The notes below the pieces were generated by a model. That model had not been told where the DNA came from, searched no databases, and saw only the letters and a program-made list of their open reading frames with translations. From positions 1 to 34,678 of the IMG/VR virus record IMGVR_UViG_3300042542_000873: a stretch of 34,678 nucleotides of DNA, one strand, 5' to 3'. Within the stretch, counting starts at the first letter, position 1; each line of letters opens with the position of its first letter. The translations under genes and the position numbers were made by a program. Shown in pieces: positions 3,647 to 28,706 of the stretch. This DNA is from a virus.

Positions 3647-3671
3647 TAGTTTGTAGTTTTTCATAGTTGTG

Positions 3672-3702
3672 AACCCCTATCCTTAAAAAGATGGGGGTTT
3701 TT
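3672..3702 (+). terminator. Terminator closing the capsid/tail operon
   Basis: AACCCCTATC (3672-3681) pairs with GATGGGGGTT (3690-3699) in a 10-bp stem with one G-U pair and an 8-nt A-rich loop. A run of Ts to 3702 follows. It ends the unit that starts at 859/865 and precedes the large non-coding gap. Confidence 0.75.
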
Positions 3703-4123
3703 GTGTTAGGAATACCCACCATAAAGTTTCTTTTTTGACATTAATGATGGCATAATAAGTCATAAAATGCACTTTCTGATATGCATTTGTCCTTTATAAA
3801 ACCCATTGAGTAAAATTACTCATTGCATTGAGTAAAGTAAAATAGTAAAGTTATAGTTTTACTTTAGTGCCCATAAAGTAAAATAATAGCTTGACTTTAT
3901 AATGTTCACTTTTTTAGTATGTTCATGGTTCGTGAACACTTTAAAATAATGAACATTTGCGTAGTATGACTACCAAGATTTAACAAATTTTGTCACATAT
4001 ATATATAAATCAGTGACATATCTGCCCTAATTTTGTTACAATAATTAACAGAATTACCCATTAATATTTTACATATTGTGGCAAAATTGCATGGATTATT
4101 CGGAAAATTCATGCAGATAAAAG
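3703..4123. other. Non-coding region with stacked inverted repeats (possible origin or operator region)
   Basis: No convincing ORF is found in this longest gap. It carries a series of inverted repeats. GAGTAA/TTACTC is at 3808-3821. AAAGTAAAA/TTTTACTTT is at 3834-3842 and 3857-3865. ATAAAGT/ACTTTAT is at 3873-3879 and 3894-3900. AATGTTCA/TGAACATT (3901-3908, 3950-3957) encloses TGTTCA/TGAACA (3920-3925, 3933-3938). GTAGT/ACTAC is at 3961-3973. TGTCAC/GTGACA (3991-3996, 4013-4018) flanks an AT run. TGTTA/TAACA is at 4034-4050. AGTAAA also recurs directly. This could be an origin, a packaging site or a cluster of regulator sites. Confidence 0.5.
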
Positions 4124-4155
4124 GTTTTGCAAACATTCACATATTCCCTATTTAT
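4124..4155 (+). promoter_or_regulatory. Candidate late-type promoter B
   Basis: CCTATTTAT at 4147-4155 stands 5 nt before the ATG at 4161, as at 852 and 29534. The upstream element is weaker here (GTTTTG at 4124-4129 in place of TTAGTTA). It would start the portal and fibre operon after the terminator and repeat region. Confidence 0.35.
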
Positions 4156-4160
4156 AATTG

Positions 4161-19386: not shown

Positions 19387-19587
19387 ATGGAAAACAGATG
19401 GGGTATAAAAATTAGCAGGATTTCAATTCCTGAAGAAAAACTAACCTATAATCAATGGGTTAGGCAATTTAATGTTTCAAGTCTATATGAAGATAGGACT
19501 GAAATACTTAGCAAGTCATGTATTAATAATCAATACAATTTTTCAAAATTAAAACAAAAAAATGAGTCAAAAACTACAGGTGCTTAA
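19387..19587 (+). CDS. Hypothetical small protein
   Basis: This 66-residue basic protein starts at the ATG at 19387, directly after the previous stop (TAATATG). A longer in-frame extension upstream would overlap the previous gene by about 90 bases and is not favoured. It contains ENRWGIKISRISIPEEKLTYNQWVRQF and a Lys/Asn-rich end. No family was recognised. It overlaps the HTH gene by 26 bases. Confidence 0.5.
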   Translation: MENRWGIKISRISIPEEKLTYNQWVRQFNVSSLYEDRTEILSKSCINNQYNFSKLKQKNESKTTGA

Positions 19588-19994: not shown

Positions 19995-20432
19995 ATGATT
20001 TCAACTACTAAACAAGAATTAATAAATACATATTCTTCTATAAGAAAAGGGTTTTCAGACCTACACAATATAATGAAAAAAGAAAATTTAATTGATGATG
20101 ACTTTTTTAATGTTCAATATCCAAAAATTGCAACACCTGAAAAAATAGTAGAATTAGTTAATGATTTCTTTGATGCTGATTTAAGGGCTAAGAATAGAAA
20201 GAAAACAACTATTTATGCAAGACAAGCAGCAGCATATATTTTAAGAAAATATACCCATTTGTCACTACAGGAAATAGCATTTAATGTAGGGCTTACAGAC
20301 CATACAAGTGCTATATATCATGTCAGAAAATGTCAGGATATTATGGATACAGAAGAATGGTTTAGGGATAAAGTTTATTATATTATTGCTGAAATAGAAG
20401 AATATTTAGTACATTTGAAGTCTAAAGATTAA
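19995..20432 (+). CDS. DnaA domain-IV-like DNA-binding protein
   Basis: This 145-residue protein has a C-terminal half matching the DNA-binding domain of DnaA: TTIYARQAAAYILRKYTHLSLQEIAFNVGLTDHTSAIYHVRK (about 75-116). LTDHTSAIYHV corresponds to the DnaA signature GRDHTTVIHA. The N-terminal half is helical and lacks the AAA+ ATPase. It may bind DnaA-box-like sites at the phage origin or interfere with host initiation. It directly precedes a structured RNA candidate and the initiator gene with internal repeats. Confidence 0.75.
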   Translation: MISTTKQELINTYSSIRKGFSDLHNIMKKENLIDDDFFNVQYPKIATPEKIVELVNDFFDADLRAKNRKKTTIYARQAAAYILRKYTHLSLQEIAFNVGLTDHTSAIYHVRKCQDIMDTEEWFRDKVYYIIAEIEEYLVHLKSKD

Positions 20433-20439
20433 TATTAAT

Positions 20440-20526
20440 GCTATGTCGTATATAGCTTACACAGACAATATTGGGTCAAGGATGAACTGCAGATACGACC
20501 TGCAGGGATTCTGCGACCCATTTTTT
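20440..20526 (+). ncRNA. Structured RNA candidate with complementary hairpin loops
   Basis: Hairpin 1 is GCTAT (20440-20444), loop GTCGTAT (20445-20451), ATAGC (20452-20456). Hairpin 2 is CTGCAG (20487-20492), loop ATACGAC (20493-20499), CTGCAG (20500-20505). The two 7-nt loops are perfect reverse complements, so they could kiss. Hairpin 2 is enclosed by TGGGTC (20472-20477) and GACCCA (20515-20520), followed by six Ts like a terminator. Four CpG occur in about 85 bases, in a genome that almost lacks them, suggesting the bases are kept for structure. It lies between the DnaA-like and initiator genes. No known riboswitch was matched. A chance arrangement is possible. Confidence 0.5.
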
Positions 20527-20531
20527 ATTTT

Positions 20532-21167
20532 ATGGCAAAAGACCCTGCAGTATTATTTTATACATCAGATTTTTTAAGTGGCACATTTACTTTAACAGAT
20601 GAACAGGTAGGTAAGTATATTAGATTGTTATGCTTACAACATCAGAAAGGAAAGCTAAGTGCAAAGGATATGCTAAGCATATGCAAAGCATATGATGTTG
20701 ACATTTATGAAAAATTTAAAGTAGAAGATGGTTTTTACTTAAATGAAAAGATGTACAATGAAACTATTAGAAGGCAAAAGTTTACAGAAAGTAGAAGAAA
20801 TAATGCTAAAACAACTAAAAATGATAGCATAAGCGAAGCACATGCTAAGCATATGCCTAAGCATATGGAAACTGAAACTGAAACTATAACTATAACTAAT
20901 ACTATAAATAGAAAGGAAAACTTTGAAAATTTAGTATCTGAATATAAAAGCCTACTAACTGAATCATATGATGAATTTATTGAATATTGGTGTGAACCAT
21001 CTAAAAGTGGTAAATTACGATATGAAGCAGAAAAGTTTTTTGATGTGAAAAGAAGGGTTAATACTTGGATTAAAAACAAACTTAAATATGGAAATACAAA
21101 AACATCTACACCAACTGCAGCAAGTACAAAAAGAATGTCAGACCTTGCAGATTGGGTTAATAGCTGA
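20532..21167 (+). CDS. Replication initiator-like protein (DUF1376-type N-terminus)
   Basis: This 211-residue protein has an N-terminal winged-helix-like domain typical of phage replisome organisers and DUF1376 proteins: DPAVLFYTSDFLSGTFTLTDEQVGKYIRLLCLQHQKG (about 4-40). A low-complexity middle (KHMPKHMETETETITITNT) follows, then a C-terminal domain with FDVKRRVNTWIKNKL. The middle of the gene carries five AAGCATATG-type repeats and an AT-rich stretch, so the gene probably contains the origin, as lambda O does. The protein would bind these repeats and load the helicase through a partner. Confidence 0.7.
   Translation: MAKDPAVLFYTSDFLSGTFTLTDEQVGKYIRLLCLQHQKGKLSAKDMLSICKAYDVDIYEKFKVEDGFYLNEKMYNETIRRQKFTESRRNNAKTTKNDSISEAHAKHMPKHMETETETITITNTINRKENFENLVSEYKSLLTESYDEFIEYWCEPSKSGKLRYEAEKFFDVKRRVNTWIKNKLKYGNTKTSTPTAASTKRMSDLADWVNS
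20675..20925. repeat. Iterons and AT-rich stretch inside initiator gene (origin candidate)
   Basis: AAGCATATG is present at 20675-20683, 20686-20694, 20847-20855 and 20859-20867, with AAGCACATG at 20836-20844. Neighbouring copies start 11, 11 and 12 bases apart, about one helix turn. Immediately downstream (20868-20925) is a run of GAAACT and ATAACT repeats rich in A and T, like an unwinding element. The arrangement parallels ori-lambda within gene O. Confidence 0.6.
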
Positions 21168-27550: not shown

Positions 27551-27561
27551 TCAATCAATAG

Positions 27562-27583
27562 AAGTTGCTTTATAGTGCAACTT
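27562..27583 (+). terminator. Hairpin after large terminase
   Basis: AAGTTGC (27562-27568) pairs perfectly with GCAACTT (27577-27583) around an 8-nt loop. No T run follows directly. It lies 12 bases after the terminase stop and probably ends or slows that transcript before the second early control region. The rest of 27584-27626 shows only a loose ATGATT direct repeat. Confidence 0.5.
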
Positions 27584-27626
27584 TGAGCTGCAAATGATTC
27601 ATAATCGGCTCATTTATGATTGATAA

Positions 27627-27656
27627 TACCATTCATCAGTTTTATTTGCCGTTCAT
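27627..27656 (+). repeat. 30-bp direct repeat, copy 2
   Basis: Identical over 30 bases to 17667-17696. Copy 2 ends 29 bases before the TTTG of its promoter, so the spacing differs from copy 1 (8 bases). Being in non-coding DNA before two otherwise similar promoters makes a shared operator likely. Confidence 0.85.
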
Positions 27657-27685
27657 CACAAAGTTTAAAAATAGTTGGCTTAATG

Positions 27686-27718
27686 TTTGGAATGTGTATA
27701 TATCCTGTTATATATTTG
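27686..27718 (+). promoter_or_regulatory. Early promoter 2 (Bacteroidota type)
   Basis: TTTG at 27686-27689, a 21-bp spacer, and TATATTTG at 27711-27718 match the Bacteroidota consensus. The segment GTGTATATATCCTG just before is shared in part with promoter 1. It is followed by AAACAAACAAACAAACC and the ATG at 27739. Confidence 0.75.
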
Positions 27719-27738
27719 TGTAAACAAACAAACAAACC

Positions 27739-28134: not shown

Positions 28135-28295
28135 CACAATATGAACTAAAGCAAAGCCTATTAGATAAGTTGGAAATAGAAGGTCTTATTGAAAGGATTC
28201 AAAAACTTGAAAAAGCATTGGCTTTAAAAGAATTAGAAGTTAAAACATTAACAAGGGAATTAATATCATTTCAGCATGAATACTATAAAGACTAA
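28131..28295 (+). CDS. Small coiled-coil protein
   Basis: A 54-residue, almost entirely helical frame with heptad-like Leu/Ile spacing (LLDKLEIEGLIERIQKLEKA, then LKELEVKTLTRELI). It likely dimerises. It overlaps the previous gene in the ATGA style, supporting real translation. Function unknown. Confidence 0.5.
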   Translation: MTQYELKQSLLDKLEIEGLIERIQKLEKALALKELEVKTLTRELISFQHEYYKD

Positions 28296-28296
28296 T

Positions 28297-28425
28297 ATGA
28301 AAGCAAAATTTAAACTAACCTGTGCAGCAGGTGCATATGAATCTGATACCTTTTGGGGTATCTTCATTGAAGTATTAAAACATAGGTTTTGGCATCTAAT
28401 GACAGATGGTAAATGGATTGATTAA
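28297..28425 (+). CDS. Hypothetical micro-protein
   Basis: A 42-residue frame starting just after the previous stop (TAATATG). It begins MKAKFKLTCAAGAYESD, contains the aromatic FWGIFIEVLKHRFWHLM, and ends DGKWID. No family was recognised; coding is supported by tight spacing. Confidence 0.4.
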   Translation: MKAKFKLTCAAGAYESDTFWGIFIEVLKHRFWHLMTDGKWID

Positions 28426-28435
28426 AAAACACATT

Positions 28436-28561
28436 ATGGATAAATTAGAAATGTATATCATGGCTTTAAAAAGCCAAATGGATAAGATTGAAGATAAAAG
28501 CAGTATTGTCTATAGGACATTAGATGCATGTTTAGAATTAGCTAAAGCCATAAATGCATAA
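28436..28561 (+). CDS. Hypothetical helical micro-protein
   Basis: A 41-residue frame, helical throughout (MDKLEMYIMALKSQMDKIED, then TLDACLELAKAIN). It sits 10 bases after the preceding stop and 2 bases before the next ATG. Function unknown. It may be a small host-directed factor. Confidence 0.4.
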   Translation: MDKLEMYIMALKSQMDKIEDKSSIVYRTLDACLELAKAINA

Positions 28562-28563
28562 AA

Positions 28564-28704
28564 ATGATTATAATAATTGGATTAATTGTCTTAATTTTGA
28601 TTTGGTTATGGTTAGCATATGAAATGCTATATGCACCAATGCTTGATGATGATGATAAAATTATAGACTTAGACCCTGACAATGAACATGATAATCTATT
28701 TTAA
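28564..28704 (+). CDS. Small single-helix membrane protein
   Basis: A 46-residue frame with a very hydrophobic N-terminus (residues 2-18, IIIIGLIVLILIWLWLA), then an acidic tail (MLDDDDKIIDLDPDNEHDN). This is an N-anchored membrane peptide with a strongly negative soluble end. It ends 2 bases before the tail chaperone gene. Function unknown. Confidence 0.5.
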   Translation: MIIIIGLIVLILIWLWLAYEMLYAPMLDDDDKIIDLDPDNEHDNLF

Positions 28705-28706
28705 CT

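Follow-up and report, generated by a model that had tools for sequence, protein, structure and literature searches.

Regulatory DNA can act by titration, as exemplified by datA for DnaA, where extra binding sites are proposed to lower the amount of free regulator. Short palindromic intergenic modules are also found as REP, BIME and MITE repeats, which consist of many dispersed copies of one module, while the target sites of homing endonucleases can hold a nuclease gene at the centre of a palindrome. Mobile mystery protein A (MmpA, TIGR02612) is the partner of a Fic protein. To our knowledge, the phage counter-defences described so far are mostly proteins or RNAs. In the AbiE type IV toxin–antitoxin system, AbiEi is reported to repress its own promoter by binding to a pair of 23-bp inverted repeats with a 3-bp spacer (PMC3985639). 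Here we have examined a non-coding gap in a stretch of viral DNA of 34,678 nt, the whole of which we refer to as the window. The reading that we favour, giving it about an even chance of being correct, is that the gap holds a modular array of operators in fixed order, in which three recurrent palindromic words (designated C, D and F) copy host operators and are probable decoys that titrate host regulators.

The gap spans 511 nt (3647–4157) between a gene for a 172-aa protein, which follows a capsid-like gene, and the portal operon, its right neighbour being a 125-aa gene that precedes the portal gene. No convincing ORF was present at 3647–4157 in the ORF list. Other gaps returned by a crude ORF picker (1–412, 20433–21087 and 28140–28706) contain ORFs of at least 40 aa, and the initial annotation was therefore fair in calling this region the largest non-coding gap. 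The same annotation had described a chain of inverted repeats at 3703–4050, between a strong terminator and the portal operon, and this chain is real. Inverted repeats in the 511-nt gap are far above those of shuffled sequences: 3703–4050 contains eight centres with perfect arms of at least 7 nt, against a mean of 1.46 and a maximum of 7 in 300 dinucleotide shuffles (p ~0.003), and folding of the whole gap gave a z-score of −5.94, with none of 100 shuffles equally stable. A nested pair around TGTTCA...TGAACA was likewise recovered at 3903–3955, with TGTTCA at 3903–3908 and 3920–3925 and TGAACA at 3933–3938 and 3950–3955; taken as repeat arms (3901–3925/3933–3957), these sequences are 25 nt long and 80% complementary. 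The repeats do lie within the limits first given, but the feature is longer, since a further dyad is found at 4088–4115 and variation among relatives extends from ~3703 to ~4123.

Relatives were represented by 80 loci (L002–L081) drawn by portal protein, of which 79 were compared (L032 is without the left gene). In these 79 relatives, the same pair of genes is separated by a gap of 86–2034 nt with nearly constant borders. On the left is a terminator-like hairpin, predicted in the window at 3671–3700 on the plus strand; on the right is an end of ~33 nt (4124–4157 in the window, plus strand), which adjoins the downstream gene, is kept even where the gap is empty and is possibly the promoter of that gene. 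The gap was empty (86–93 nt) in 20 of the 79 relatives, a count that is not deduplicated. Four relatives with portals 99% identical (L002–L005) had fillings of 511–845 nt with differing content, that of L004 being nearly the same as the filling of the window. Each filling is a mosaic built from palindromic words that recur: 16 strings, the two borders among them, gave 7.7 hits per gap in the 26 gaps of at least 300 nt as compared to 0.4 in base-shuffled gaps, and only scattered word hits occurred in the relatives' loci outside gaps. In one relative with an empty portal gap (L017), a word E, accompanied by other words recognized by eye, was found downstream of terL. Words next to terL are also present in L067.

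An origin, a packaging site or a regulator array had been put forward as the function of the region. A replication origin or packaging site could explain an AT-rich, repeat-rich element that usually occurs once per contig fragment, and the window encodes a DnaA-like HTH protein at 19995–20432 (Bac_DnaA_C, 53.5 bits). An origin would, however, be expected to be kept in close relatives and to show initiator boxes or a change in skew. The empty gaps in a quarter of the relatives make it doubtful that an indispensable origin or packaging site lies at this position, and the 34.7-kb record of L077, where the gap is empty, contained no hit to the words tested. GC skew, the cumulative form of which had been suggested as a check, was positive in every interval of the profile with no change, and no TTATCCACA-like DnaA box with up to one mismatch lies inside the gap. 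Loss or shuffling of the region in close relatives had been named in advance as evidence against its proposed function, and for the origin this is what the relatives display. Both the origin and the packaging site are poorly supported, and we regard them as extremely improbable. The suggestion of a regulator array is supported in an unexpected form, in that the palindromes are similar to operators that control accessory genes of bacteria rather than to proven sites for the HTH or DnaA-like proteins of the phage. The HTH protein, encoded at 19562, is a winged HTH (HTH_39).

The words are spread well beyond the relatives. Stretches of viral contigs matching the word B pattern numbered 96 and those matching the word C pattern at least 119. 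The four marker genes of the window family were all lacking from 114 of 141 new loci, partly because many of these loci are short fragments. As named by eye, the flanks of the arrays comprise a terminase large subunit with a terS-like gene, a YqaJ-like nuclease, small peptidase-like genes, glycosyltransferase/acetyltransferase genes and the genes of the window family. Three or more words were present in 185 loci, representing 153 distinct arrays. With inverted words left aside, 1977 of 2020 word pairs in the 153 distinct arrays agreed with the order M A B C D L E Q F G H I J K and 43 opposed it, a count that is not an independent test because this canonical order was fixed by eye before counting. 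An inverted word was present in 26 of the 153 arrays. There is usually one array per fragment, the exceptions being single extra words, and the many genome-wide copies typical of dispersed repeats such as REP and MITE were not observed; those families multiply one module, whereas the arrays are each one chain of different modules. A blastn search with the L058 array (E 1e-5) gave no match in 50,697 phage and 72,556 plasmid records, nhmmer with single words had too low a sensitivity, and a full-text search of open-access papers found no published report of such an array. As far as we have searched, there is no precedent for an ordered and mobile array in which operators of several host accessory systems are copied; the single operators themselves are no new kind of thing.

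Within the window, words A (3716–3787) and H (3980–4049) were called by local alignment to word consensus strings, which were written by eye. Between them lie words C, D and F, followed by GTAGTATGACTAC at 3961–3973, which resembles the end of word G by eye against the G consensus and was uncalled by the aligner. The dyad TGCATGGATT/AATTCATGCA at 4088–4115 is a repeat pair resembling word K, which the aligner did call in L004, whose gap is nearly the same. Downstream of terL, another intergenic site contains a single reversed word B (27584–27623, minus strand).

Arrays other than that of the window also fold stably, with a mean z of −5.5 over 40 arrays and 35 of the 40 below −3, as would a structured non-coding RNA built of modular hairpins. 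This reading was dropped after tests of strand preference and covariation, neither of which gave the signal of an RNA. Both strands were equally stable when compared with their own shuffles (z of −5.76 and −5.10 in 66 arrays), mismatches in the dyads comprised 120 G-T versus 104 A-C pairs, and double changes numbered 13 versus 27 expected. Moreover, scans of the window with Rfam and for tRNAs found no family and no tRNA, and the inverted words in some arrays speak against such an RNA. A raw strand difference, in which 86% of 128 arrays were more stable on the other strand, was a consequence of base composition. Protein-binding DNA fits the strand-equal folding and the lack of covariation better than does an RNA, which we consider very unlikely.

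Word C matches a bacterial element. The window at 3806–3835 (TTGAGTAAnnnTACTCAnnnnATTGAGTAA) is identical, letter for letter, to the 23 fixed bases of a pattern that occurs in at least 117 stretches of genomes, with titles naming many phyla, and it contains the cluster of TTGAGTAA dyads with fixed spacing. Among 80 fetched genome loci with word C, 58 had a neighbouring gene of one family, characterized by AAA_14 and DUF4143 domains, and 22 were without such a neighbour; the neighbour protein scores 607 bits to PDC-S01, the name of a candidate system in PADLOC. Repeats of the TTGAGTAA type were upstream of all 49 full-length genes, partly by construction as these loci were fetched by the pattern, and two or more were downstream of only 2 of the 49. 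When genomes were instead sampled by protein similarity, a close homologue of the ATPase was found in 6 of 60, and all six loci had TTGAGTAA or TTACTCAA at upstream positions. The word in the window thus appears to be a copy of the PDC-S01 upstream element, differing from it in the absence of the gene: DUF4143 genes were detected in none of 390 viral loci, and no adjacent ATPase gene accompanies word C in the phages. In bacteria, the TTGAGTAA cluster upstream of AAA_14/DUF4143 genes (L223–L302) is conserved across many phyla. As an unusually well-kept operator-like element in front of a gene of unknown function, this cluster is of interest by itself.

For word D (3844–3898), the likeness is one of geometry. 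A D-type pattern was found in 4 of 178 genomes versus 2 with the reversed control. In one of the four (L343), tandem D copies precede an HTH gene encoding MmpA (143.1 bits; cut-off 122.6), while the hits in the other three (L340–L342) look like chance. The MmpA family occurred above cut-off in 23 of 295 genomes. A strict D pattern, with up to two mismatches, was present in 8 of 25 MmpA upstream regions versus 11 of 500 control windows; a general D dyad, fixed after viewing those upstream regions, was present in 13 of 23 versus 36 of 1150. Gene-free arrays contained 103 sites for the general dyad (in 71 of 139 arrays) versus 0.15 in base shuffles. With the strict pattern, and in arrays deduplicated by identity only, the distance between successive phage dyads was 33 nt for 31 of the 41 pairs (32 nt once, 34 nt seven times and 40 nt twice), and with a relaxed pattern MmpA dyads were 33 nt apart in 19 of 23 pairs and 32 nt apart in the other four. 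The two dyads of the window (3845–3862 and 3878–3895) have the same 33-nt period as the tandem dyads of MmpA promoters. No MmpA gene with a promoter box was found downstream of word D in the phages, and thus the phage copy differs from the MmpA operator in having no MmpA gene and in mostly missing the box.

This box is TAnnTTTG, which we take to be the Bacteroidota −7 consensus. It was present in 20 of 23 MmpA upstream regions (one strand, 172 nt) versus 12 of 93 phage D/N regions, which were scanned on both strands and were somewhat shorter than 172 nt. Depletion extends across the arrays, with 52 boxes in 139 gene-free arrays, whereas 100 dinucleotide shuffles averaged 106 (sd 9) and never gave fewer than 86. 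A looser promoter box at word C fails to discriminate, being present in 64 of 93 arrays and 51 of 58 gene loci. From the promoter box and the genomes in which cognates of D and F were found, we infer that the host belongs to the Bacteroidota.

Word F (3901–3957) corresponds to the nested pair of inverted repeats. The F dyad, with up to one mismatch, occurred in 6 of 291 genomes versus 4 for the reversed control. At L572, L573, L574 and L577, four of these six loci, the dyad is at the start of a gene for a protein of ~325–340 aa, which is followed by a gene that is nucleotidyltransferase-like by eye. Both of the first-gene proteins tested have an AbiEi_2 domain (87 and 94 bits; cut-off 21); the one partner protein tested had no match in Pfam, and the AbiEi_2 proteins had none in PADLOC. 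Two outer and two inner half-sites have identical offsets in word F of the window and in all four AbiEi-like promoters. TAnnTTTG is within 30 nt of the dyad in three of these four promoters, but in only 4 of 73 array F dyads. There is no AbiEi gene at the gap of the window and no TAnnTTTG near its word F, and this phage copy is chained with other sites. Word F of the window accordingly appears to be an operator copy rather than an abiE promoter. As the genome counts for both F and D are near those of the controls, the case for these words rests on neighbours and spacing.

Operators with neither genes nor promoters might alternatively be fossils, the remnants of an island of self-regulated genes in which genes and promoters have been deleted and the operators persist without use. 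The fixed order would fit common descent with recombination, and the array is missing from the gap in some relatives while some slots still hold genes. Mere remnants would not, however, be expected to keep their spacing, as seen for the 33-nt period of word D and the half-sites of word F in the window, while the promoter box is depleted, nor to occur in several unrelated gene contexts. We therefore view this explanation as improbable.

The genes that do occur in slots of the arrays run opposite to the array order, in all but one case, a small ORF. Around slot D is a protein of 162–168 aa with T5orf172/MUG113 and HTH (HTH_3) domains, the HTH being weakly like that of MmpA (24 bits); the position of this gene is not fully constant, since in L151 it is located ahead of the word C call. 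Slot F contains an Endonuclease VII protein, and a related protein is found in slot I of L477, where the gene splits at its centre a word I dyad of which L432 and L443 have unbroken copies. By eye, the promoters of slot genes have the half-sites of their own slot around a TAnnTTTG-like box. A tblastn search of 390 viral loci placed 12 of 13 hits for the D-slot protein and 8 of 9 for the slot F protein inside arrays, the thirteenth D-slot hit (L355) being beside a word L. The gap of the window contains no nuclease gene.

These genes give rise to the main rival of the operator reading, in which the palindromes are target and docking sites of homing-type nuclease cassettes, each of which would enter its own site, spread and later be lost, leaving mostly empty sites. 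The nuclease domains in slots D, F and I, the splitting of the word I dyad, which recalls the target sites of homing endonucleases, and the location of nearly all the tblastn hits inside arrays favour such landing sites. Yet there are about a dozen sites here, kept in order, mostly empty and in several cases like the operators of regulators. Word C is one-sided in bacteria and its DUF4143 genes were absent from the viral loci, MmpA and AbiEi_2 are regulators and not known nucleases, and it is hard to see what a phage would gain by keeping a dozen bare cleavage targets in order. We judge landing sites to be an unlikely explanation overall, although they account for the slot genes better than decoys do. 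The decoy reading predicts neither the conserved order nor the slot nuclease genes, which count against it, and both uses may occur together.

Returning to the operator array, the resemblance to host operators extends to three words only, each matching a bacterial gene that regulates itself and has links to toxin–antitoxin or candidate defence systems: word C matches the element of the AAA_14/DUF4143 defence candidate, word D that of MmpA and word F that of AbiEi-type antitoxin-repressors. The identity of these words, their geometry, order and spread, and the depletion of the promoter box are established from the sequences. Array copies have no genes and mostly no promoter box, and replicating phage DNA would multiply the operator copies and could thereby sequester scarce autorepressors or antitoxins of the host. 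Sequestration would disturb control of the cognate host loci to the benefit of the phage, whether through raised antitoxin, an unbalanced toxin or otherwise. Binding of the cognate proteins and a benefit to the phage are what we would predict from the sequence resemblance. The array is also a place in which nuclease genes with matching promoters occur (slots D, F and I). Compared with datA, such an array would have many different sites in one mobile chain that are directed at host accessory genes, with titration being putative.

These patterns suggest that phages may carry a reusable decoy panel. A wider and more tentative proposal, in which our confidence is somewhat below even, is that phages from many lineages draw on a common, exchangeable stock of roughly a dozen operator decoys against autorepressors of toxin–antitoxin and defence systems, carried as a mobile array of fixed order. 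If so, counter-defence could be exerted by bare DNA, and the unmatched words would point to defence regulators that are yet unknown. A DNA-only panel of operators would be a new type of counter-defence and would explain clusters of non-coding palindromes in phages. The operator reading also makes a testable claim as to the host loci whose disturbance profits a phage, and words still lacking a match could be used as probes, each being expected in the promoter of some self-regulated gene.

Searches for further cognates in sampled genomes gave hits for words B, H/I, K and L at or near the level of the reversed-pattern control. Word B was found in none of 14 chosen genomes and, with two to three mismatches, in 4 of 178; both of the hits examined sit inside ordinary genes and were rejected. 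Word H/I occurred in 4 of 291 genomes, below control, and word K with three mismatches in 2 of 225 (control 1). For word L, a strict pattern was found in none of 218 genomes and a relaxed pattern in 6 of 225, with ~10 genomes for the reversed control. In one locus (L582:1501–1577), a Fic_N/Fic gene follows a pair of L-like dyads with a spacing of 40 nt, which is a weak lead for a cognate of word L because the hit count is at control level.

Several minor observations concern single loci. At the intergenic site downstream of terL in the window (27551–27738), the reversed word B encloses a GTTGC/GCAAC hairpin. In L061 (803–1642), the match to the left gene extends only to residue 148 of 172, and directly after it come 361 nt that the L062 array shares without a difference, a junction that is either a deletion or an assembly chimera. 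The core of word F occurs at many unrelated sites in viral contigs, including promoters of XRE genes and tRNA clusters, and such hits were rejected as leads to a cognate. An F-type dyad (GTTCACGnTTCGTGAAC) is present in tRNA clusters of large phage contigs (L367:2276–2292, L397:1921–1937, L399:6932–6948 and L402:5368–5384). In nine viral loci (L366, L368, L372, L373, L374, L389, L392, L410 and L425), this same dyad is ~30 nt from a gene for a 69-aa XRE-type protein, and the dyads near XRE genes are possibly of independent origin.
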